From positions 1-35,256 of the forward strand of contig JAICSK010000007.1 in the NCBI GenBank assembly GCA_025936915.1: a stretch of 35,256 bases of DNA, in the 5' to 3' direction. Below, in pieces: positions 14,140 to 25,172 of the stretch. Positions within the stretch are counted from its first letter, which is position 1. Every line of letters begins with the position of its first letter. The stretch is from Nocardioides sp. (GTDB taxonomy: Bacteria; Actinomycetota; Actinomycetes; Propionibacteriales; Nocardioidaceae). A program made the position numbers and the translations under genes. A model generated the notes under the pieces. That model was not told where the DNA came from and ran no database searches. It was given only the letters and a program-made list of their open reading frames with translations.

Positions 14140-15078
14140 TCAGAGCCCGCGCAGGAACTCGACCAAGCCGGCGAAGTAGGTGTCGGCGTCGTCGACCAGG
14201 GCGAGGTGGCTGCCGTCGGGCGAATGGTGGTAGCGGCCCTGCGGAAGCTGCTCGGCCATCCACCGCAGGTGGGCCGGGTCCATGGTGTCGTGCTCGGCCC
14301 CCATCACCAGGGTCGGGACGTCGACCCGCGCCAGATCGGCCGTGCGGTCCCAGTGCGCGAGCTTGCCGCTGGCGCCGAGCTCGCTCGGACCCTGCAGCGG
14401 CACGTAGATCGCGGGGTTGATGTGGTCGAACCCGCGCAGCACCGGGTCGGGCCAGTCCTCCTGGGGCAGCCGACAGACGTGGTGCACGTAGTGGTGCTCC
14501 ATCAGCAGCGCGTCGTACGACGGGTCGTCGGTCTCACCGGCGGCCTCGAGCCGCTTGATCTCGGCCAGCGCCTCCTGGTCCATCGCCGGCATCAGCACCT
14601 CCTCGGCATACCTGTTGTACGCCGGGATGCTGGCCATCATGTTCGAGATGACGAGTCCCTTGAGCTGCTGCTGGTGGGCCAGCGCGTACTCCAGGGCCAG
14701 GACGCCGCCCCACGACTGGCCGTAGAGCACGAAGTTCTCCGGCCCGAGGCCCAGCGCCAGGCGCACCTGCTCGACCTCGTCGACGAAGCGGTCGATCTCC
14801 CACAGCGACGGGTCGTCGGGCTGGTCGCTGAAGTGCGACCCGAGCTGGTCGTAGAAGTAGTACTCGACACCGGCGGCCGGCAGGTAGGAGTCGCAGGTCT
14901 CGAGGTACTCGTGCGTCGCCCCTGGCCCGCCGTGCAGCAGCAACACCTTGAGCCTCGGGTTGTTGCCCACCCGCTTGGTCCAGACCCGGAACTCACCGGA
15001 CGGAGTGGACACGGGGACCATCCGCACGCCGCCGGCGATGCGGTCGGGCCGGCCCGAGGAGTCGAGGTAGTCGCTCAC
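14140..15078 (-). CDS. Proline iminopeptidase-like hydrolase (peptidase family S33)
   Basis: A 312-residue alpha/beta hydrolase with the hallmark HGGPG oxyanion motif of proline iminopeptidases (LLHGGPGATHEYL), the nucleophile elbow GQSWGG (Ser at about 122), acid in GAEHDTMDP and base His in SPDGSHLALVDD. YDQLGSHFSDQPDD is also typical. There is no signal peptide, so it should be cytoplasmic and cleave N-terminal proline residues from peptides or a similar amide/ester. It starts with GTG (15076-15078) 12 nt after the LuxR-family regulator gene and must be co-transcribed with it. Pairing with a LAL regulator hints that it could process that regulator's ligand, but this is only inference. Confidence 0.92.
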   Translation of the reverse strand: MSDYLDSSGRPDRIAGGVRMVPVSTPSGEFRVWTKRVGNNPRLKVLLLHGGPGATHEYLETCDSYLPAAGVEYYFYDQLGSHFSDQPDDPSLWEIDRFVDEVEQVRLALGLGPENFVLYGQSWGGVLALEYALAHQQQLKGLVISNMMASIPAYNRYAEEVLMPAMDQEALAEIKRLEAAGETDDPSYDALLMEHHYVHHVCRLPQEDWPDPVLRGFDHINPAIYVPLQGPSELGASGKLAHWDRTADLARVDVPTLVMGAEHDTMDPAHLRWMAEQLPQGRYHHSPDGSHLALVDDADTYFAGLVEFLRGL

Positions 15079-15090
15079 CGGGCGAGCATG

Positions 15091-17865
15091 TCACGCACGC
15101 GGCGCTGCTGGGGCTCCCGACGACCGCATCGCGGGAGTGAGCAGCTCGGCCAGCTCGGCGCGTGAGCCGATCCCGAGCTTCGTGTAGACCTTGCGCAGGT
15201 GGTACTCGACGGTCTTGGGGCTCAGGAACAGGGCGGCGGCGGCCTCCCGGGTGGTGCGCCCCTCGACCAGCAGCATGCTGACCTGCAGCTCCTGCGGCGT
15301 CAGCGAGCCCCGTGGGTCCGCATCGCGGCGCTGCACCGACTCCCCCGTGGCGGCCAGCTCGACCGCGGCGCGCTCGGCCCAGCGCGCCGCGCCCAGGTCC
15401 TCGAACTCGTCGAGGGCCTCGCGCAGCTGCTCCCGCGCCAGCACGCGGTGAGAGGAACGACGCAGGCGCTCGCCGTAGGCGAGGCGCGTGCGCGCGGTCT
15501 CGAACCGGTCGAGGGTGACGCCATGCGCCTCGAGTGCGGCCTCGAACCGCGAAGGGGCGGCGTCTTCGTCGGCCAGCAGACCGTGCGCACGTTCGGACCG
15601 CGCGAGCGCCCAGGGCTGCCCCTTCTCCCGGGCGGAGCGCTCGTACGCCGTGGCGATCGCCCGCGCCTCGTCGGCCAGGCCGAGCCGCAGCAGCGCCTCG
15701 ACGAGCTCCGCGGCCGGCACCAGGTCGGCGTCCGCGAGCTCGTGCACCTCGAGCAGGCGGAGCAACCCCCGGAACGCCTCGACGGCCCGCGAGGGGTCGC
15801 CGAGAGACAGCTCCAGGTCTCCCAGGGCGTAGCGGGTCCACGCCTCGGCCATGTGCACCTGGTCGCTGGCGGGCGCTGCCAGCACGGCAGCCGCGTGCTC
15901 CCGGCACCGGTCCTCGTGGCCCTGCCGGGACTCCAGCCAGGCCAGGCCCGCCAGCGACATCACCCGGATGGTCGCCTGGCCGGTCTCCTCGGCGAGGCGG
16001 ACCGACTCGGCGTAGTTGGCCTCCGCCTCGACCCAGGCGGACGTGGTGGCCTGGTCTCGAGCGACGTGGAAGAGGACGGCGGGCAGCGGCCCGATCCCCA
16101 CCTTCCCCCGCACTTCGTCCACGACCTCGCGCACCCCCCGGCCGCCGGTCGTGTCGCGCAGGTACAGCGGCAGCTGCATCACCAGCGACAACCGGTCGGG
16201 GTCCTGGTAGAGCGCGGGGGTCGCCTCGACCAGGGGGACCGCTGCCCGCAGCTCCTCGACGCCCCCAGGCTGACCGGCGAGCACTCGGGCCACGCCCGAC
16301 GCGATCAGACCGAGCGCGCGGGCGCGAGGGTCGGAGACGCCCGGGGCCAGGGCGTTCAGACGGTGCGCGACGGCGCGGGCGACGGCCGCGTCCGCGAGGT
16401 AGAAGTTCGCGTTCACGGCATCGGCGAGGATCACCGTCTCCTCGTCGGGATCCCCGGCCAGGTCCGCAGCGGCGACCAGCATCTCCCGGGCGTCTCGCAC
16501 CCGCCCGGTCCGGAGCGCGATGGCGCCGCGCACGGCGAGCTCGCGCATCCGCCCGGTCCGACCGGGCTGCTCGCGGGCGTGGGAGTCGAGCACGGCGAGC
16601 GCGCGCTCGGTCAGCCCGGCCGACCACGCCGTCTCGGCGGCGTCCAGCAGGAGCTCGGCCCGGCGTTCGCGGTCCGGACACAGCCGGGCGGACCGCTCGA
16701 ACGCGCCCGAGGCGACGGAGTACGCCGACCGGTCCCGCGCTCGTTCGGCGGCCTGGGCCATCAGCCCGGAGACCTCGGCGTCCGGTTGCCACACCGACCC
16801 GGCCAGGTGCCACGCGCGCCGGTCCGGGTCGCCCTCGGGCAGCGCCTCCGCCACGGCCCGGTGGGCCTCACGCCGCTCCCGAGCCGCAGCGCGAGAGTAG
16901 ATCGCGGCCCGGACCAAGGGGTGCCGGAAGGTGATCCGGTCAGCCTCGATGCTGATCAGACCGTCGTCCTCCGCCTCGGCAAGACTCTCGGCATCGAGGC
17001 CCAGGTGTGCGCTCGCACGCGTGGTCACCAGGAGGTCGCCCGCGCACATCGCAGCCACCAGGAGGACCCCACGGCAGGTCTCGTCCAGACGGTCGAGCCG
17101 CCGGGCGAACGCCGCCGTCACCGCGTCCGGCACCCGCACCGGCAGGTCCGAGGGCTCGATCGCGAGGGCGTCGAGTGCGTCGAGGTCGTCGCCGGCCAGC
17201 TCGACCAGAGCCAGGGGGTTGCCGGCCGCGAGGGCGAGGAGCGGCTCGACGCGGCCGGGGTCGAGCGGCACGCCCGCGGTCCTGGTGACCAGCGCCGCCG
17301 CGGCGTTGTCGTCCAACCCCGCCAGGTGCGCCACGGGAAGACCGGACACCAGCACGTCCGCCTCCCCGGTCCGCACCGCGGCCAGCACCGCGATCGGGTC
17401 GGCGGCCACCCGTCTCGCCGCGAAGACGATCGCCTCCGCCGACGGCAGGTCGAGCAGATGCAGGTCATCGACCACCACAGCGACCGGGCCCTCCTCGGCG
17501 AACCGGGACCACAGGCTCAGCACGGCGGCGCCGATCAGGAAGCGGTCACCGCTCACACTCCGCGCGGCGGAAAGGGCCAGCGCAGCCGACAGCGCCTCCG
17601 CCTGCGGCGGTGACAGGCCGTCCATGCTGTCCAGGGCGGGGCGCAACAGCTGGAGCAGGCCGGCGAACGGGATGTGCCGCTCGGCCTCGAGGCCGGTCGC
17701 GCGGAGCACCCGCAGGTCGCCGAGCGAGGCGACCACGTCCTCGAGCAGCGCCGTCTTCCCGACGCCCGGCTCACCCATGAGCACCAGGGTGCCGCCGACC
17801 CCGAGTCTCGCCGTTGCGACCAGACGGCCGACAGCCTCGCGCTCTGAGTCCCTCCCCAGCAGCAC
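15091..17865 (-). CDS. LAL-type LuxR-family transcriptional regulator with ATPase domain
   Basis: A 924-residue regulator of the large ATP-binding LuxR (LAL/MalT-like) class. The N-terminus has Walker A GEPGVGKT (about 32-39) and Walker B VAVVVDDLHLLDL; the long middle is helical and repeat-like, as in TPR-type sensor regions; the C-terminus carries a LuxR helix-turn-helix (SLTPQELQVSMLLVEG, REAAAALFLSPKTVEYHLRK, YTKLGIGSRAELAELL). It probably senses a small molecule or metabolic state and activates the divergent OsmC-FMO-SnoaL-P450-GT-hydrolase operon 157 nt away. The start is GTG at 17863-17865; an in-frame TAG four codons upstream rules out a longer protein. A TAGACT box 6 nt before the GTG suggests a leaderless mRNA. 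The peptidase gene follows after 12 nt. Confidence 0.95.
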   Translation of the reverse strand: MLLGRDSEREAVGRLVATARLGVGGTLVLMGEPGVGKTALLEDVVASLGDLRVLRATGLEAERHIPFAGLLQLLRPALDSMDGLSPPQAEALSAALALSAARSVSGDRFLIGAAVLSLWSRFAEEGPVAVVVDDLHLLDLPSAEAIVFAARRVAADPIAVLAAVRTGEADVLVSGLPVAHLAGLDDNAAAALVTRTAGVPLDPGRVEPLLALAAGNPLALVELAGDDLDALDALAIEPSDLPVRVPDAVTAAFARRLDRLDETCRGVLLVAAMCAGDLLVTTRASAHLGLDAESLAEAEDDGLISIEADRITFRHPLVRAAIYSRAAARERREAHRAVAEALPEGDPDRRAWHLAGSVWQPDAEVSGLMAQAAERARDRSAYSVASGAFERSARLCPDRERRAELLLDAAETAWSAGLTERALAVLDSHAREQPGRTGRMRELAVRGAIALRTGRVRDAREMLVAAADLAGDPDEETVILADAVNANFYLADAAVARAVAHRLNALAPGVSDPRARALGLIASGVARVLAGQPGGVEELRAAVPLVEATPALYQDPDRLSLVMQLPLYLRDTTGGRGVREVVDEVRGKVGIGPLPAVLFHVARDQATTSAWVEAEANYAESVRLAEETGQATIRVMSLAGLAWLESRQGHEDRCREHAAAVLAAPASDQVHMAEAWTRYALGDLELSLGDPSRAVEAFRGLLRLLEVHELADADLVPAAELVEALLRLGLADEARAIATAYERSAREKGQPWALARSERAHGLLADEDAAPSRFEAALEAHGVTLDRFETARTRLAYGERLRRSSHRVLAREQLREALDEFEDLGAARWAERAAVELAATGESVQRRDADPRGSLTPQELQVSMLLVEGRTTREAAAALFLSPKTVEYHLRKVYTKLGIGSRAELAELLTPAMRSSGAPAAPRA

Positions 17866-17871
17866 CCGAGG

Positions 17872-17896
17872 AGTCTAGGCCCGGCCGGAGCCGGCC
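17872..17896 (-). promoter_or_regulatory. Leaderless promoter of the LuxR gene with an overlapping dyad
   Basis: On the minus strand TAGACT (17872-17877) ends 6 nt before the GTG start. Just upstream, in the region between -10 and -35, an inverted repeat GGCCGG-AG-CCGGCC (17883-17896) could be an operator for self-control. GC-rich dyads are common in such DNA. On the other side of the 157-nt intergenic region, CTAGGGGGGTCTCCGG (17920-17935) is a second possible regulator site, and GGAG lies 6 nt before the osmC-like ATG. No clear promoter for the plus-strand operon was found. Confidence 0.4.
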
Positions 17897-18022
17897 CCAG
17901 GTCGGGCCGCGCGGCAGAACTAGGGGGGTCTCCGGATGCGGTGCCGCCGCAGCCGCGGCCACGGTGGTGTTCACACACATGCCGGCCGCGGGCCCACCCG
18001 ATCGGCTGAGAACGGAGTCAGC

Positions 18023-18580
18023 ATGACCATCACCGCACCCATCGACAACGGCGTCAACGTCGAGGCTCTGCTCGGAGCGCGAGCCGCGCTGGCGGAGACG
18101 CCGGAGATCGCCCAGTTCACCTGGCGCTCCTCGGTCTCGTGGATCAACGGCACGCACAGCCGCTCCGAGGTCGAGAGCTTCTACGGCTTCTCCGACGAGC
18201 AGGTCCACCACCAGTCGTTCACCATCGACGCCGACCACCCGCTGCAGTTCGCGGCGCAGGACATCGGCCCGACGCCGGTCGAGTACGTCCTGGTCGGGCT
18301 CGGTGCCTGCCTCACCGCCGGTGTGGCCGCCGTCGCCCAGCAGCGCGAGATCCAGCTGCGCTCGGTCAGGGCGACCCTGTCGGCCGACATGGACATCCAC
18401 GGCATCCTCGGCGCCGACCCGGATGTCCGCAACGGCTTCAGCGGCGTCAAGGTCGACTACGAGATCGACGCCGACGCCTCCGCCGAGGACATCGAGGCTC
18501 TGGTGGCGCAGTCGCAGAAGCGGTCGGCCGTCTTCGACATCGTGGCCAACCCGACCGACGTCACCGTGACCGTGGTCTGA
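18023..18580 (+). CDS. OsmC-family protein with a single cysteine
   Basis: A 185-residue OsmC/Ohr-fold protein. The core matches the family: a beta-rich N-terminal half, IGPTPVEYVLVGLGACLTAG with the conserved first Cys at about 96, and the C-terminal SAVFDIVANPTDVTV strand. Canonical OsmC and Ohr peroxidases use two cysteines; here the second is absent (the site reads KRSAVFD), and Cys96 is the only Cys in the protein. It therefore may not be a classical two-Cys thiol peroxidase; many OsmC-like proteins of this type remain uncharacterised. ATG 18023 is preceded by GGAG with 6 nt spacing; the track's longer ORF starts in intergenic DNA. First gene of a six-gene operon, 10 nt before the FAD enzyme. 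Confidence 0.9.
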   Translation: MTITAPIDNGVNVEALLGARAALAETPEIAQFTWRSSVSWINGTHSRSEVESFYGFSDEQVHHQSFTIDADHPLQFAAQDIGPTPVEYVLVGLGACLTAGVAAVAQQREIQLRSVRATLSADMDIHGILGADPDVRNGFSGVKVDYEIDADASAEDIEALVAQSQKRSAVFDIVANPTDVTVTVV

Positions 18581-18590
18581 GGGTGCGCTG

Positions 18591-19793
18591 ATGCCGACCG
18601 TCACCGCGGTCGTGGTCGGAGCCGGGCACTGCGGACTCGCCATGAGCCGCCACCTCACCTCGCGCTCGATCGACCACGTGGTCCTCGAGCGCGGGGAGGT
18701 GGCGCAGTCCTGGCGCACCCAGCGGTGGGACTCGCTCCGGCTCCTCACCCCGAACTGGATGACCCGGTTGCCCGGGTGGGAGTACGGCGGTGACGATCCC
18801 GACGGCTTCCTGTCCGCCGGAGAGGTGGCCGACCTCGTGGCGGGATACGCCGAGGCGTCGGCCGCCCCGGTGGTCACGGGAGCCACCGTCACGGCCGTCC
18901 GTCCGGGTCCCGGTGGGTTCGAGGTCGACACCGACCAGGGCCGGTGGACGGCGCGCACCGTCGTCCTTGCCGCCGGCGCCACCCGGGCCTTCGTCCCCGC
19001 CGTCGCGCGGCGACTGCCCGGCCTGGCGTCCATGACCGCGCTGCAGTACCGGCATCCCGAGCAGCTCCCCGAGGGCGGAGTCCTCGTCGTGGGCGGCTCC
19101 GCCAGCGGCGTACAGATCGCCGACGAGCTGCAACGCTCGGGCCGGCAGGTCACGCTGTCGGTGGGCGAGCACGTGCGCGTTCCCCGGACCTACCGGGGAC
19201 GCGACATCCTCTGGTGGCTGGACCACCTCGGGATCCTCGACGAGCGTTGGGACGAGGTGGACGACGTCGTCCGAGCGCGTCATCTGCCCTCGCTGCAGCT
19301 CGTCGGTGCTGCACACACGCTCGACCTGAACACGCTCCAAGCCAGGGGCGTCCGCGTCGTGGGTCGCTTCGCCGGGATCCGCGACGGCGTGGCCCAGCTC
19401 TCGGGCGCCCTCACCAACGTCTGCGTGCTCGCCGACCTCAAGCTCGGGCGGCTGCTCTCCACCATCGACGAGTACGCCGGCGGCCGCGGCGACCGCCCCG
19501 AGCCCACGAGACTCCGGGAGCGCCCTCCCCTCGGGCTCCCGCTGCACACCGGCGAGCTCCGCTCGATCGTGTGGGCCACCGGCATCGGGCCGGACTTCTC
19601 CTGGGTCGACGTCCCCGTCTTCGACCACCGGGGCCGGTTGCTCCACGAGGGCGGCGTGACCCGGTGGCCCGGTCTCTACGTCCTCGGGCTGCCGATGCTG
19701 AGGCGCCGCCGCTCGACGTACCTCGACGGCGCCCGACTCGACGTGGCCGACCTGGCCGCGCACCTCACCGACTCCCTGCAGGAGGCATCGTGA
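18591..19793 (+). CDS. FAD-dependent monooxygenase / CzcO-like flavoprotein
   Basis: A 400-residue two-dinucleotide-binding flavoprotein. FAD binds at VVVGAGHCGLAMSRHL near the N-terminus and NADP(H) at LVVGGSASGVQIADEL around residue 165. The segment WRTQRWDSLRLLTPNW is typical of CzcO/FMO-type oxygenases and IVWATGIGPDFSW of their C-terminal FAD contact. The Baeyer-Villiger fingerprint FxGxxxHxxxW is not seen; the corresponding place reads LQYRHPEQLPEG, so an N- or C-hydroxylase or related oxidase is more likely. The substrate is unknown. ATG 18591 has GAGGG about 7 nt upstream. Its stop overlaps the GTG of the SnoaL-like gene by 4 nt, so both are translated together with the P450. Confidence 0.9.
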   Translation: MPTVTAVVVGAGHCGLAMSRHLTSRSIDHVVLERGEVAQSWRTQRWDSLRLLTPNWMTRLPGWEYGGDDPDGFLSAGEVADLVAGYAEASAAPVVTGATVTAVRPGPGGFEVDTDQGRWTARTVVLAAGATRAFVPAVARRLPGLASMTALQYRHPEQLPEGGVLVVGGSASGVQIADELQRSGRQVTLSVGEHVRVPRTYRGRDILWWLDHLGILDERWDEVDDVVRARHLPSLQLVGAAHTLDLNTLQARGVRVVGRFAGIRDGVAQLSGALTNVCVLADLKLGRLLSTIDEYAGGRGDRPEPTRLRERPPLGLPLHTGELRSIVWATGIGPDFSWVDVPVFDHRGRLLHEGGVTRWPGLYVLGLPMLRRRRSTYLDGARLDVADLAAHLTDSLQEAS

Positions 19794-20155
19794 ACACTCA
19801 TCCGCTGGCGACGTCGGTCGCCACCGCGGTCGCCGACCGGGCGCTCGACCGCCTCAGCGACCACCTCACCGACGAGATCCGGCTCCGGGCTCTCCTGCCC
19901 GGCGGATCGATCGAGGAGAACGGCCGCGAGGCCGTCCTGGCCCGGTTCGACGACTGGTTCGGCAGCCACGACACCGTGGTGCTCAGCGATGTCGCGGGTG
20001 ACGACATCGGCGACCGGGTGCTGGTGCACTACAAGCTGACCATCGACCCCGACGGCGACAGCAGGGTGCTCAGCCAGACCGTCGTCTGCTCGGTGTACGA
20101 CGGCCTGATCGGCCGCATGGACCTGGTCTGCTCCGGCTACCGGACCCCGTCATGA
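19790..20155 (+). CDS. Small SnoaL/NTF2-like protein
   Basis: A 121-residue single-domain protein that looks like the NTF2-like cone fold: an N-terminal helical part (LDRLSDHLTDEIRLRALLPG), EENGREAVLARFDDWFG, then alternating strands (VLVHYKLTIDPDG, VCSVYDGLIGRMDLVC). Members act as polyketide cyclases, isomerases, dehydratases or ligand-binding accessory proteins; no specific catalytic residue can be assigned here. The GTG start (19790-19792) overlaps the flavoprotein stop (GTGA) and has GGAGG 6 nt upstream. Its stop overlaps the P450 ATG by 4 nt. The ORF track shows it only as the tail of a spurious longer frame. Confidence 0.8.
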   Translation: MNTHPLATSVATAVADRALDRLSDHLTDEIRLRALLPGGSIEENGREAVLARFDDWFGSHDTVVLSDVAGDDIGDRVLVHYKLTIDPDGDSRVLSQTVVCSVYDGLIGRMDLVCSGYRTPS

Positions 20156-21414
20156 GCACCCCGGCAGAGACCGCCCGGGACGCGGCTCTCGATCAGTGGG
20201 GCGACCACGACCCCGACCGACCCTTCCCCCTCTACGACAGGGTCCTCGGGTCGGGGCCCGTCCACGACGTCACCCTGTCCGACGGGCACCGGGCCGTCCT
20301 CGTCCTCGGGTACACCGCGACGCGCGAGGCCCTGACCCATCCGGACCTGTCCAAGGACATGCTCGCCGCCCTGGCCGACGGCGACTCGGTCGTCGCCGAG
20401 GGTCTCCCTGGCCCGGCGTTCGCCCGGCACATGCTCAGCGTCGACCCGCCGGACCACACTCGGCTCCGCAAGCTCGCGGCCGGGGCCTTCCGCCGAGCCC
20501 GGATGGAGGCGCTGGAGCCGCGGATCCGAGAGCTGGCCGACGAGCTGCTCGGCGAGCTCGCCTGCGCCGAGGGGCCCGTCGACCTGGTCGTCGGGTTCGC
20601 CCGTCCGTTCCCGTTCGCGGTGCTCGGCGAGCTGCTCGGCATCGACCGCGACGACCAACAGCGTCTCTCGGTCTGGTTCACCGCCCTGCTCGCGCCCTAC
20701 TCCGCTGCCGAGCCGCCGCCCGAGGCGGTGGCAGCCTCGGACGCCATCGTCGGTCACCTCAACGACCTCGTCGACGACCGTTGGACGTCGCCGTCCGAGG
20801 ACCTCGTCGGCGACCTCGTGCGGGCCTGCCGGGGCGACCTCCTGACCCGTCAGGAGCTTCTCTCGACACTGTTCCAGCTGATCGTCGCCGGACACGACAC
20901 CACGACCAGCCTGATCGGCAACGGGGTCGCGCTGCTGCTGCAGGACGTCGCCCAGCTGGACGCTCTGGTGGCCGACCCTGCGCTGGTGCCCAGAGCCGTC
21001 GAGGAGATGCTCCGCGTCGATCCACCCGCCCACCACGCGACCTTCCGGTACGCCATCCGCGACACCACGATCGCCGGGGTGACGGTCCCGTCCGGCGTTC
21101 AGGTCCTGGTGAACCTCGCCGCCGCCGGGCGAGACCCCGAACGCACCGACGACCCCGAGGTCTTCGACGTACGACGCGTCGGTGCCGCGCACGTGGCCTT
21201 CGGCCACGGGGTCCACCACTGTCTCGGAGCACCCCTTGCCCGGCTGGAGGCGCAGATCGCCTTCACCGAGCTGGTCCGGCGGTTCCCGCGGATGCGGCTC
21301 GCCGTACCACCGGAGGACCTCCACTGGGACCACGGCGACGGGCTCGTCCTGAGGGGGCTGTCGTCCCTGCCGGTCTTGCTGGGCCCGTCTCCCGAGGACG
21401 ACAATTCCCCATGA
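20152..21414 (+). CDS. Cytochrome P450
   Basis: A 420-residue soluble bacterial P450. All signatures are present: I-helix AGHDTTTS (about 246-253, oxygen activation), K-helix ExxR in EEMLR (about 285-288), and the heme loop FGHGVHHCLGAPLARLE with the thiolate Cys at about 357. RKLAAGAFRRARM is the usual C-helix region. It needs external ferredoxin and reductase partners, which are not in this operon. The substrate cannot be read from sequence, but position between an FAD monooxygenase and a glycosyltransferase suggests hydroxylation of a small hydrophobic molecule. The ATG overlaps the SnoaL-like stop (ATGA); its stop overlaps the glycosyltransferase start by 4 nt. Confidence 0.97.
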   Translation: MSTPAETARDAALDQWGDHDPDRPFPLYDRVLGSGPVHDVTLSDGHRAVLVLGYTATREALTHPDLSKDMLAALADGDSVVAEGLPGPAFARHMLSVDPPDHTRLRKLAAGAFRRARMEALEPRIRELADELLGELACAEGPVDLVVGFARPFPFAVLGELLGIDRDDQQRLSVWFTALLAPYSAAEPPPEAVAASDAIVGHLNDLVDDRWTSPSEDLVGDLVRACRGDLLTRQELLSTLFQLIVAGHDTTTSLIGNGVALLLQDVAQLDALVADPALVPRAVEEMLRVDPPAHHATFRYAIRDTTIAGVTVPSGVQVLVNLAAAGRDPERTDDPEVFDVRRVGAAHVAFGHGVHHCLGAPLARLEAQIAFTELVRRFPRMRLAVPPEDLHWDHGDGLVLRGLSSLPVLLGPSPEDDNSP

Positions 21415-22649
21415 CCAGCCGGACCTGGGTGCGAGCCCGGAGCCGCCCGCGGCGGGCGCTCTACCTCTCCTCGCCGATCGGGCTCGGCCATGCCCGTCGC
21501 GACCTCGCGATCGCGCAACATCTCGAGAGACTGCACCCCGACCTGCAGATCGACTGGCTCACCCAGCACCCGGTGACCCGGGTCCTGGAGGACGCCGGCG
21601 AGCACGTGCACCCGGCCTCCGCCTGGCTGGCCAACGAGTCGGCCCACATCGAGCAGGAGTCGGGCGAGCACGACCTCCACGTGTTCGGTGCGCTCCGGGA
21701 GATGGACGAGATCCTGGTCAACAACTTCATGGTGTTCAACGACGTGGTCGAGGAGACGCCCTACGACCTGGTGATCGGCGACGAGGCCTGGGACGTGGAC
21801 TACTTCCTGCACGAGAACCCCGAGCTCAAGCGGTTCTCGTTCGCCTGGATGACCGACTTCGTGGGCTTCCTGCCGATGCCCGACCTCGGCGAGCGCGAGG
21901 CGTTCCTCACCGCCGACTACAACGCCGAGATGCTCGAGCAACGTGCTCGGTTCAAGCGCATCCGCGACCGACAGGTCTTCGTCGGCAACCCCGACGACGT
22001 CGTGGACGAGTCGTTCGGACCGGGCCTGCCCGACATCCGCGAGTGGACCCTTGACCACTACGAGTTCTGCGGGTACGTCACCGGCTTCGAGCCGCCCTCC
22101 GAGGACGAGGTGGTCCGGTCGCGGCACGAGCTCGGGTACGGCGCCGACGACGTCCTGTGCGTGGTGTCGGTGGGCGGGTCGGGTGTCGGCGTGCCGTTGC
22201 TGCGTCGCGTCCTCGACGCCGTTCCGCTCGCGCGGGAGCGGATCCCCGAGCTGCGCTTCCTCGTGGTGACCGGTCCGCGGATCGACCCCCAGGCCCTGCT
22301 CCCCGTCGACGGCGTCGAGGTGCGGGGGTTCGTGCCCGACCTCCACCTGCGGCTGGCGGCCGCCGACGTGGCCGTCGTCCAGGGCGGCCTGACCACGACG
22401 ATGGAGCTGACCGCCGCGCGGGTCCCGTTCGTCTACGTGCCGCTGCAGCACCACTTCGAGCAGAACTTCCATGTGCGCCACCGCCTCGAGCGCTACCGCG
22501 CCGGACAGTGCGCGTCGTACGCCGAGGTCAGCGACCCGGAGTGGCTGGCCGACGCCTTGGTGAAGCTGGTCGGCACGGACGTGTCCTTCCGGCCGGTCGA
22601 GAGCGGCGGTGCCGAACGCGCGGCCGCGATGCTGGCGGAGCTCCTCTGA
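21411..22649 (+). CDS. GT-B fold glycosyltransferase (MurG/UGT-like)
   Basis: A 412-residue glycosyltransferase. The N-terminal Rossmann half opens with LYLSSPIGLGHARRDLAIA, the Gly-rich/His loop of GT28 and GT1 enzymes. The C-terminal half holds VVSVGGSGVGVPLLRR, LVVTGPRID and the nucleotide-sugar site VVQGGLTTTMELTAARVPFV followed by PLQHHFEQN, resembling the GT28 C-terminal domain. No signal or membrane segment is seen. The acceptor is unknown; the partners suggest a hydroxylated small molecule rather than cell-wall lipid, but lipid acceptors cannot be excluded. ATG 21411 overlaps the P450 stop (ATGA), and its stop shares one base with the next ATG (TGATG). Confidence 0.9.
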   Translation: MTSRTWVRARSRPRRALYLSSPIGLGHARRDLAIAQHLERLHPDLQIDWLTQHPVTRVLEDAGEHVHPASAWLANESAHIEQESGEHDLHVFGALREMDEILVNNFMVFNDVVEETPYDLVIGDEAWDVDYFLHENPELKRFSFAWMTDFVGFLPMPDLGEREAFLTADYNAEMLEQRARFKRIRDRQVFVGNPDDVVDESFGPGLPDIREWTLDHYEFCGYVTGFEPPSEDEVVRSRHELGYGADDVLCVVSVGGSGVGVPLLRRVLDAVPLARERIPELRFLVVTGPRIDPQALLPVDGVEVRGFVPDLHLRLAAADVAVVQGGLTTTMELTAARVPFVYVPLQHHFEQNFHVRHRLERYRAGQCASYAEVSDPEWLADALVKLVGTDVSFRPVESGGAERAAAMLAELL

Positions 22650-23527
22650 TGCGCGCGCTCGCGCCCGTCAACGAGGGCGTCCTCGACCGTCACGGGTTCG
22701 GGGTCGGGTACGCCGTGTACGGCGACGGGCCGGTCACCGTGTGCCTGGTGATGCCCGACACGATCGTGCACGCCCGGGCCTGGAAGGCGCAGGTGCCGTT
22801 CCTTGCCCGGCACTTCCGGGTGGTCACCGTCGACCCCCGGGGCAACGGCCGTTCGGACCGTCCCACGACTCCGGAGCAGTTCGCCCCGACCGAGCTCGAG
22901 GCAGACGTGTGGGCGGTCCTGGACCGCGTCGAAGCCACCCGCGCGGTGCTGGGCGGGCTGTGCAGCGGCGCCGCCCTGGCCACGATCATGGCCGCCGAGC
23001 GGCCCGAGCGGGTGATGGGAGTCGTGGCCATCAACCCGGGCATGGCCCTGAGTCCACCGCTGCCGCACAAGCTGCAGTACGACTTCGAGGCCGAGCTGGA
23101 CACCGACCAGGGCTGGGCGACGATGAACCGCCACCACTGGCTACGTGACTGGTCGGGGTTCGCCGAGTTCTTCTTCGGGGAGATGTTCCCGGAACCGCAC
23201 TCCACCAAGCAGGTCGAGGACACCGTGGCCTGGGCGACGGAGACGACACCGGAGGTCATGCTGCTCGACCGCCAGAGCGAAGCCGACCCGAGGTTCGGCG
23301 AGGGAGCCGAGGAGATGTGCCGCCGCGTCCGCTGCCCGGTGCTCGTCATCAGCGGCTCGCTGGACATGTGCCAGAGCCCCGACCGGGGCCGGCGGGTGGC
23401 GGAGCTGACCGGCGGCGACTTCGTGCTGATGGAGGGAAGCGGACATCTCCCCAACGCCCGAGACCCGGTGCGGGTCAACCTGCTGATCCGTGACTTCGTC
23501 CTCCGGGTGTCGGCAGACCGGGTGTGA
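22649..23527 (+). CDS. Alpha/beta hydrolase with a probable Cys nucleophile
   Basis: The fold is clear over 292 residues: VVTVDPRGNGRSDRP after strand 4, a nucleophile elbow, acid in ISGSLDMCQSPDRG and base His in EGSGHLPNARDP. The elbow reads VLGGLCSGAALAT. Aligned with the usual VLVGHSMGG, the nucleophile position is Cys105, not Ser; Ser106 follows it. Cys nucleophiles occur in dienelactone hydrolases and a few transferases, so this enzyme may act on activated esters or lactones or transfer acyl groups. The ATG (22649-22651) shares its A with the glycosyltransferase stop; the track's longer ORF is out of frame upstream. It is the last gene of the operon, followed by a hairpin. Confidence 0.88.
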   Translation: MRALAPVNEGVLDRHGFGVGYAVYGDGPVTVCLVMPDTIVHARAWKAQVPFLARHFRVVTVDPRGNGRSDRPTTPEQFAPTELEADVWAVLDRVEATRAVLGGLCSGAALATIMAAERPERVMGVVAINPGMALSPPLPHKLQYDFEAELDTDQGWATMNRHHWLRDWSGFAEFFFGEMFPEPHSTKQVEDTVAWATETTPEVMLLDRQSEADPRFGEGAEEMCRRVRCPVLVISGSLDMCQSPDRGRRVAELTGGDFVLMEGSGHLPNARDPVRVNLLIRDFVLRVSADRV

Positions 23528-23594: not shown

Positions 23595-25172
23595 TCAGTA
23601 GCGACTGCCTCCGGCGATGGGTCCCGGCCTGCCGTCGGGATCGTGAACGATGTCGAGCGGCACCTTGGCCCAGGTCCGGGTGAAGCGGGAGAGCCGCGGA
23701 AGCGGGATCGGCCGGAGGCGTCCCGGCGGCCGCTCCCCCACCCGTCCGGTGCGGTGCCACCGCTCGAGGTCGTCGGCGGAGGCGGCGTAGGCGTCGTACA
23801 TGCCGGCCGGGTCGAGGCAGTCGGACATCGTCTCGTGCAGGCCCCGGTCCGCGACCTCCCCGAGCCGGTCGAGGTGCTCGGCGGCCAGGGTCAGGCGCAG
23901 GTCTCGGGCGTAGTCCTCGTCGAGGACGACAGCGCTGAGCTCGGAGTCGTGGGTCCACGACCTGCGGTTGAAGTTGTCCGATCCGGTGCTCGCCCAGACG
24001 TCGTCGATCACGCACACCTTCGCGTGCACGTAGACGGGCGTGCCGGCGTGGTTCTCCAACCCGTACGCCGCGACCCGGCCGGGCGCGGCACGCATCAGCC
24101 GCACGAGGGCCCGTTCGCGGCCGAGGTACTGCGGCACCCGGTTCAGGCCGGCGATGTCGGGCACCAGCGGGATCACGACCATCACCCGCAGCTCCGGACG
24201 CGAGAGCAGCGCCGACTCGAACGGCTCGGCCACGCCATGGCCCCAGAAGTACTGGTCCTCGACGTAGATGATCCGCTCCGCCCGGCCGATCGCCTTGGAG
24301 TAGCCGCGGGCGACACTCCGCTCCCCACCCCGGGCGAACGGGTAGTCGCGGCCGTGCCGCAGGTCGGGATAGGTCCGCAGGAGCTGGACCGTGTGCGGGC
24401 CGGCCTCAGGGGGAGGCGGCCACTGGTCGGGCAGGCCGTCGGGTGAGGTGTCGTCGTGCCGCAACAGGTCGGCCGCCTTGCGGATGGGGCTGCGGGCCAA
24501 GGGGGTCGGGTCCTCCCAGCGCTCCCGGAACACGGTCTCGACGTCGTAGACCGCCGGACCGTGTATCTCGACCTGGACGTCGTGCCAGGGCGGGTGGTCG
24601 CCGTACTCCTCGGTGAGGGTCTGAGGCTGCGGGTCTCCCCCATGGTCGGCGTCGTCCCGGCGGTTGTGGGCGAGGTCCATCCCGCCGACGAAGGCGACGT
24701 CGCGAGTCGGGTCGTCGCGGTAGCGGATCACCACGAACTTCTGGTGGTGGGAGCCGCCGCTGCGCACCCGCATGTCCAGCAGCACCTCGGCTCCGCGGTG
24801 CTGGAGCTGCTCGCCCAGGTGCCGGTTCTCCGTGGCGAAGAAGCCGGTCTGGTCCAGGTGGGACCGCCAGACGAGGCCGCGCACGTGGACCCCGCGCTCG
24901 TCGGCCCGCCCGAGCACCTCGACGACCTCGCTCCCCGGTTCGCCGGTGAGGCGCTCGTCGGCGTCGCCCTGCCAGTCGGTGAAGGACACCTGGTCGCCCG
25001 GACCGGCAGCCTCGACGGCGTCGTACAGCGCCCGGAAGTAGGAGCTGCCGTGGATCAGCGGCCGCACCAGGTTGCCGCTGGACCACGCCCGGTCACCGCC
25101 GTGCCGGTCGTCGAGGACGGTGGACGGGTTCCCGCGTTCGGCCCGGGTCAGCAGCCACTCGGAGGGATCCAC
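23595..25172 (-). CDS. Phospholipase D-family (HKD) protein
   Basis: A 525-residue protein with two PLD domains. The second HKD motif is complete: YVHAKVCVIDD (His383, Lys385, Asp390), followed by GSDNFNRRS. The first is SHHQKFVVIRYRDD (His143, Lys145), where the Asp of HxKxxxxD is Arg; FVGGMDLAHNRRDDADHGG follows. From memory, several actinobacterial relatives also show this change. IIYVEDQYFWGHGVAEP is typical of phospholipase D or cardiolipin synthase-like enzymes. No signal peptide is seen. It begins with a GTG (25170-25172) that has AGGAGG only 1 nt before it, which is too close, so the exact start is uncertain; an in-frame TGA upstream excludes a much longer form. It lies 33 nt downstream of the MFS gene and is probably co-transcribed. 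Confidence 0.9.
   Translation of the reverse strand: MDPSEWLLTRAERGNPSTVLDDRHGGDRAWSSGNLVRPLIHGSSYFRALYDAVEAAGPGDQVSFTDWQGDADERLTGEPGSEVVEVLGRADERGVHVRGLVWRSHLDQTGFFATENRHLGEQLQHRGAEVLLDMRVRSGGSHHQKFVVIRYRDDPTRDVAFVGGMDLAHNRRDDADHGGDPQPQTLTEEYGDHPPWHDVQVEIHGPAVYDVETVFRERWEDPTPLARSPIRKAADLLRHDDTSPDGLPDQWPPPPEAGPHTVQLLRTYPDLRHGRDYPFARGGERSVARGYSKAIGRAERIIYVEDQYFWGHGVAEPFESALLSRPELRVMVVIPLVPDIAGLNRVPQYLGRERALVRLMRAAPGRVAAYGLENHAGTPVYVHAKVCVIDDVWASTGSDNFNRRSWTHDSELSAVVLDEDYARDLRLTLAAEHLDRLGEVADRGLHETMSDCLDPAGMYDAYAASADDLERWHRTGRVGERPPGRLRPIPLPRLSRFTRTWAKVPLDIVHDPDGRPGPIAGGSRY

Follow-up and report, generated by a model that had tools for sequence, protein, structure and literature searches.

Organization of the locus

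The window analyzed here, i.e., a stretch of 35,256 nucleotides (nt) covering positions 1 to 35,256 of contig JAICSK010000007.1 (assembly GCA_025936915.1), belongs to a fragmented 3.4 Mb genome of the Nocardioides type (286 contigs, 94% complete). It carries an operon of six genes which, judging from its sequence, is a mosaic of two conserved units: a LAL regulator-glycosyltransferase/hydrolase cassette and an OsmC-FAD enzyme unit. The six open reading frames (ORFs) are located on the plus strand, with gaps of 10, -4, -4, -4, and -1 nt. They encode an OsmC-like protein (18023–18580, 185 amino acids (aa); Pfam OsmC, 63 bits), an FAD/NAD(P)H oxidoreductase resembling MSMEG_0569 and flavin monooxygenases (18591–19793, 400 aa; Pyr_redox_3), a SnoaL-like protein with a GTG start (19790–20155, 121 aa; SnoaL_2, 34 bits), a cytochrome P450 (20152–21414, 420 aa; p450), a GT-B glycosyltransferase (GT) (21411–22649, 412 aa; Glyco_tran_28_C), and an alpha/beta hydrolase of the Cys-His-Asp type (22649–23527, 292 aa; Abhydrolase_1). 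A codon-usage gene caller, the training set of which included the FAD enzyme, P450, GT, and hydrolase genes and left out those of OsmC and SnoaL, returned identical starts and stops for all six genes. The stop of the P450 gene and the start of the GT gene overlap in the sequence ATGA. The motifs were all intact as read, namely the P450 heme cysteine, residues H27 and E350/Q351 of the GT, the C-D-H residues of the hydrolase, and the glycine motifs for FAD and NAD(P). The GC content and the codon use are uniform and give no indication of a recent foreign origin.

On the minus strand, the gene of a 924-aa LAL-type regulator (15091–17865) diverges from the operon, which is flanked on both sides by pyr operon genes. 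No polyketide synthase, nonribosomal peptide synthetase, terpene synthase, or other scaffold gene was found among the genes scanned, which comprise most of those between about 5.4 and 33.4 kb. A preliminary description, based on the letters of the window alone, had proposed a compact operon coupling oxidation with glycosylation next to its own regulator and lacking a scaffold synthase; the ORFs, the gene caller, and the Pfam matches agree with the positions, strands, and gaps it gave, and these features were all borne out by the present analysis.

The LAL regulator and its operator

The regulator shows the features typical of the LAL family: a length of about 900 aa, an N-terminal AAA ATPase domain (AAA_16, residues 2–160, with the Walker A motif GEPGVGKT), and a C-terminal LuxR-type helix-turn-helix (HTH) domain (GerE, residues 854–907). 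Although the genomes of Nocardioides each contain dozens of LAL candidates, those adjacent to a GT gene are the close homologues: apart from the window's own protein, all 20 homologues with at least 43% identity adjoin a GT gene, and two weaker ones (40%) do not. The LAL and GT genes are reciprocally linked, and the LAL protein is the cognate regulator. In the tree of LAL sequences, it is sister to the LAL proteins of operons in Microbacterium and Micropruina which comprise LAL, methyltransferase, GT, and hydrolase genes (support 99).

The intergenic regions between LAL and methyltransferase genes have a 23-bp element in common. A position weight matrix built from 51 other loci, excluding the window, gave a score of 31.3 at positions 17918–17940 of the plus strand (AACTAGGGGGGTCTCCGGATGCG), the presumed LAL binding site, as compared with 8.7 at the second-best site in the window, a maximum of 12.3 in 20 shuffled 35-kb sequences, and a maximum of 24.3 in 2000 Markov samples of the short intergenic gap. 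This operator is located upstream of the OsmC gene in the window and upstream of the methyltransferase gene at the 51 other loci. In a set of 74 loci, each examined over 4 kb on either side, LAL was present in 59 and the methyltransferase in 53; the operator occurred at 58 of the 59 loci with LAL and at none of the 15 without it. In the genomes searched, copies without mismatches were found only at the LAL locus, and copies with two mismatches elsewhere were about as frequent as those of a reversed control pattern. Since the operator is nearly unique in each genome and the additional two-mismatch matches occur at the control rate, LAL appears to be a dedicated regulator with a single target.

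A -10-like hexamer, CACGGT (17960–17965, plus strand), begins exactly 19 nt past the operator. Hexamers of the form [TC]A..[GT]T occur at this offset in most of the 51 other loci, and almost never at any other offset, and this layout may be that of an activator binding directly next to the -35 region. The site recognized by PimM and other PAS-LuxR regulators was also considered: the operator resembles its consensus, CTVGGGAWWTCCCBAG, in the CTAGGG half only, and identity is not claimed. On the minus strand, the hexamer TAGACT (17872–17877), 6 nt ahead of the GTG start codon of LAL, is the likely -10 of this gene, and its position suggests that the LAL transcript is leaderless. The corresponding element, GAGTCTAGG, recurs at the same position in many intergenic regions between LAL and methyltransferase genes. 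The LAL genes, that of the window (17866–17877) among them, thus appear to be transcribed without a leader, TAGACT being placed some 6 nt ahead of their start codons.

The glycosyltransferase and the hydrolase

The residues H27, D124/E125, QGG 324–326, and E350/Q351 of the GT are invariant in 41 homologues. The structural model of this protein (pLDDT 90.5) gave CalG1, a macrolide GT, and LanGT2 as the best PDB folds, and the predicted fold is closest to those of natural-product GTs acting on small hydrophobic molecules, macrolide GTs included. Although the GT-B fold is similar, the score with the macrolide GT family MGT (TIGR01426) is only 33 bits, versus a cut-off of 260. GT homologues are present in 42 of the 220 Nocardioides genomes and in tens of genera of Actinomycetota, Chloroflexota, and Pseudomonadota (57–83% identity); relatives also occur in Deinococcota, where one distant homologue is carried by a Deinococcus plasmid.

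In most genomes, the GT forms the C-terminal half of a protein of about 700 aa, the N-terminal half of which is an alpha/beta hydrolase. Separate genes in the order GT-hydrolase were found in the window, in Microbacterium and Micropruina, and in one Kribbella copy. The nucleophile elbow of the window hydrolase reads GLCSG: the nucleophile is Cys in the separate downstream hydrolases and Ser in 72 of the 77 fused ones. The separate and fused hydrolases form distinct clades, and the window sequence falls in the Cys clade with those of Microbacterium, Kribbella, and Occultella (support 100/99). The hydrolase resembles esterases and lactonases, including enol-lactonases, with a score for PcaD (3-oxoadipate enol-lactonase) of 81 bits, under the cut-off of 256. 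Since the fused hydrolase-GT protein is predicted to form a single rigid body (pTM 0.91), the separate GT and hydrolase of the window may also form a complex.

In the GT tree, the window sequence is sister to the GTs of Nocardioides strain CER19 and N. terrae, which have MddA and a Ser-type hydrolase as neighbors. Homologues of MddA (methanethiol S-methyltransferase) were observed beside the GT/hydrolase genes at four loci, two of them in these Nocardioides and the other two, of more distant kind, in Bradyrhizobium and an alphaproteobacterium. At nine other loci, genes for DUF1326 and PpoB2/DUF2182 proteins (a copper chaperone family) recur beside the GT, and those of Chloroflexota often carry two tandem hydrolases, one of the Ser type and one of the Cys type.

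A conserved cassette and the replacement of its methyltransferase

A widespread unit in Actinomycetota consists of LAL, an Rv2258c-like methyltransferase, and the hydrolase and GT, the last two usually being fused. The methyltransferase (about 358 aa) has two domains, a PF21320 winged HTH and a methyltransferase domain, and is usually encoded by the first gene under the operator promoter. Its closest solved relatives are TnmJ (182 bits), which belongs to the tiancimycin pathway (PMC9464397), and Rv2258c (140 bits). An assignment to MddM1/MddM2 was rejected, given the length of about 358 aa and the winged helix, versus 204–210 aa in the MddM enzymes (PMC12904073). This cassette is apparently undescribed: no description of it, or of the gene set of the window, was found in the open-access literature, as the preliminary description had supposed in the case of the latter.

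The window shares with this cassette the LAL gene divergent from the operon, the 23-bp operator, the -10-like hexamer at 19 nt, and a GT together with an alpha/beta hydrolase, here unfused and in the Microbacterium order. The first gene under the operator is not that of the methyltransferase, however: its slot is occupied by the OsmC-FAD-SnoaL-P450 genes, and no homologue of the Rv2258c-like enzyme was found in the host's own 94%-complete assembly. The differing tree placements of LAL, the hydrolase, and the GT point to the mosaic nature of the operon. A second form of the cassette was observed at seven loci, where a fused hydrolase-GT gene diverges from the methyltransferase gene, the LAL operator is lacking, and an SARP/AAA regulator is encoded close by; the GT frame is seemingly broken in three genomes.

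The OsmC-FAD-SnoaL-P450 unit

The OsmC gene lies immediately 5' of the FAD enzyme gene at all 21 loci examined. The window OsmC protein (best PDB match 2opl) has a single cysteine (GACLT), and the position of the second catalytic Cys is occupied by Ser (KRSAVF). Since the second peroxidase Cys, which is typical of two-Cys OsmC/Ohr thiol peroxidases, is missing in all 21 OsmC proteins linked to the FAD enzyme, the window protein is not a canonical hydroperoxide reductase. The FAD enzyme gave 105 bits with ArsO and a PDB match with 4usq; its membership in the MSMEG_0569 cluster (TIGR04046) was rejected, with a score of 305 bits versus a cut-off of 498. The P450 (PDB match 6xa2, 294 bits), which has the heme motif FGHGVHHCLG, finds its closest solved relatives in TamI, PikC, and vitamin D hydroxylase, and is nearest to macrolide or polyketide hydroxylases.

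Searches for P450 homologues were run on 220 genomes of Nocardioides, 346 of the family, and 397 of the phylum. They gave only one other close homologue, in Nocardioides genome G207, where it is spread over two contigs (65/66% identity); the two pieces are inferred to be one gene. The order OsmC-FAD-SnoaL-P450 recurs only in this genome, with 73, 67, 48, and 65/66% identity, the SnoaL homologue being placed between the FAD enzyme and the P450. The two P450 pieces lie at contig ends, and the next gene is not a GT but a transporter gene in convergent orientation. The exact set of six genes was therefore found in no other genome searched. The synteny on which the preliminary description had staked its claim is thus conserved for the parts: LAL is strongly linked to the GT/hydrolase genes and OsmC to the FAD enzyme, and the four-gene unit occurs once more, without the GT.

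In many Nocardioides, the OsmC-FAD pair has as neighbors metX, metY (which encodes O-acetylhomoserine sulfhydrylase), and the gene of a CoA-binding protein, which suggests a link between these pairs and sulfur assimilation. In a second OsmC-FAD clade, observed at six loci, the pair is followed by an FAD_binding_3 hydroxylase and often an SARP/AAA regulator, with a MaoC-like gene upstream.

Chromosomal site and boundaries of the unit

One contig of genome G170 (C41) aligns with the window, with about 82% DNA identity, over pyrB, pyrC, a transporter gene, and a PLD gene, up to position 23626. A further match covers the 5' end of an iminopeptidase gene (14924–15095). Between these matches, the segment from LAL to the hydrolase is replaced by a methyltransferase, a fused hydrolase-GT, and an SARP/AAA regulator in the other orientation. 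The DNA alignment thus indicates that this close relative carries a differently regulated GT cassette at the same chromosomal site. From the matching flanks, the unit extends from about 15.1 to 23.6 kb. The S33 hydrolase of the proline iminopeptidase family (14140–15078, minus strand; TIGR01250, 291 bits versus a cut-off of 168), which the preliminary description had listed after the regulator, was confirmed as to its family and position; its 5' end belongs to the shared flank, so that it is a flanking gene rather than part of the unit.

The pyr genes of the window are ordered pyrR-pyrB-pyrC (30.6–27.8 kb) and carA-carB-pyrD (11.9–6.3 kb), with about 15 kb between the two groups (11.9–26.9 kb). 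In most of the relatives read, pyrC adjoins carA or is separated from it by a few genes, which, as compared with the 15 kb in the window, points to a variable insertion site.

Proposed function and alternative explanations

We favor, with moderate confidence, the view that the operon is a self-regulated cassette for the modification of small molecules, with one of its enzyme modules swapped for another, and that it carries out the ligand-induced oxidation and glycosylation of an exogenous toxic compound. A toxic or signaling small molecule would enter the cell and bind LAL, which, with ATP, would activate the single promoter from the operator directly next to the -35 region. Oxygen would be inserted by the FAD enzyme and the P450, and SnoaL and OsmC might handle intermediates or peroxides. 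Using a nucleotide-activated sugar, the GT-B enzyme would then glycosylate the hydroxyl so created or some other acceptor group. The Cys-type hydrolase, the relatives of which are usually fused to the GT, could act on this molecule as well, either opening a lactone or ester or shifting an acyl group. Overall, the compound, which is probably exogenous and might be, for example, a polyketide-like antibiotic, would be inactivated and solubilized. The dedicated one-target sensor, the patchy occurrence, the differing versions in relatives, and the lack of scaffold genes are consistent with an inducible system that inactivates a compound from outside; the patchy distribution in 42 of 220 genomes and the presence of another cassette at the same site also agree with an accessory role resembling resistance, rather than with one in core metabolism.

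Several points weigh against this view. The scores with macrolide esterase models are far under the cut-offs, and the likeness to macrolide-acting enzymes holds at the superfamily level only. The operon contains no exporter or ferredoxin gene. Only one assembly, a fragmented one, was found to contain the hybrid, which beyond the intact frames and motifs has no comparative support as a unit. LAL regulators also serve biosynthetic clusters, of which CYP107-like P450s and GT-B enzymes are likewise typical. The main alternative, which we consider less likely, is that the operon is a tailoring unit: an endogenous product, made by scaffold genes elsewhere in the genome, would be modified by the P450, FAD enzyme, GT, and hydrolase, with LAL as the pathway switch. 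The PDB neighbors of the P450 and GT are indeed biosynthetic enzymes, and the PDB entry nearest to the methyltransferase found in the sister operons comes from the tiancimycin pathway, but the conserved core occurs in very different neighborhoods in tens of genera without any recurring adjacent scaffold gene, and with one operator site per genome a scaffold cluster located elsewhere would lie outside the control of LAL.

The operon might also respond to thiols, volatile sulfur, or oxidative stress, reactive sulfur or thiol-reactive electrophiles being dealt with here through oxidation by OsmC and the FAD enzyme, and in certain other lineages through S-methylation. This we regard as unlikely. 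The MddA homologues of N. terrae (311 bits, above the cut-off), CER19, Bradyrhizobium, and the alphaproteobacterium are in its favor, the first two strains holding the nearest relatives of the window GT, as are the OsmC-FAD pairs adjoining metX-metY and the joint response of osmC and metY to sulfur limitation in Pelagibacter (PMC5069961). However, it leaves the GT and P450 with no obvious role, most relatives carry the Rv2258c-like methyltransferase rather than MddA or MddM, and the MddA loci lack both LAL and the operator. LAL proteins share their architecture with MalT, and the regulator could in principle sense the inducer of a catabolic operon that supports growth on some compound from plants or soil. 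Despite the similarity of the hydrolase to enol-lactonases and esterases, this seems quite improbable: glycosylation conjugates rather than degrades, and no ring-cleavage or beta-oxidation genes follow in the operon. Lastly, a hybrid seen once in an assembly of 286 contigs could be an assembly artefact, but this is hardly credible, as both junctions are biologically exact (the operator with its 19-nt spacing into OsmC, and the ATGA overlap between the P450 and GT) and the composition and codon use are uniform.

The proposal of an inducible detoxification cassette can be tentatively extended to an undescribed, widespread family, in which a fixed GT/hydrolase core and a fixed sensor and operator might be combined with interchangeable chemistry, either methylation or P450/flavin oxidation. 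This family could provide a swappable defense of the phase-I/phase-II style against one class of toxic compounds, related strains having different versions at the same site. The GT is conserved across phyla (at least 57% identity), and no function was found for it. As a dedicated sensor and an operator recognizable by eye accompany it, the inducer, and hence the substrate, can be directly searched for; a compound that induces the window promoter should likewise induce the methyltransferase operons found in Microbacterium or Cellulomonas. If these are detoxification cassettes, enzymes that inactivate by glycosylation have a common reservoir in them among soil bacteria, and the window offers a natural experiment in which methylation has been exchanged for oxidation behind one sensor.

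Comparison with known systems

The preliminary description was in part correct as to the overall interpretation, and did not include the operator, the replaced methyltransferase, the usual hydrolase-GT fusion, or the difference between cassettes at the same locus. As regards single enzymes, the FAD enzyme is similar over its full length to the MSMEG_0569 family, but no nitrilase or radical SAM gene was seen among the window genes scanned. OleI/OleD, CalG1, and LanGT2, GT-B enzymes of the macrolide and calicheamicin type, are the closest solved folds to the window GT and share its donor-site features, with 14–19% identity and a TM-score of about 0.6. TnmJ and Rv2258c have their counterpart in the replaced methyltransferase, the gene of which is absent from the window. 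As regards whole units, G207 carries the same four genes, OsmC-FAD-SnoaL-P450, in the same order, without the GT and hydrolase after them and without an adjacent LAL gene. The LAL/methyltransferase/hydrolase-GT operons of Microbacterium, Cellulomonas, Kribbella, Nocardioides, and others share with the window the LAL family, the operator, the spacing, the GT (about 62–76% identity), and the hydrolase superfamily. They carry a methyltransferase where the window has OsmC-FAD-SnoaL-P450, and most of them have a fused hydrolase-GT with a Ser nucleophile, whereas the Microbacterium operons show the same GT-then-hydrolase order and the same Cys-type hydrolase as the window.

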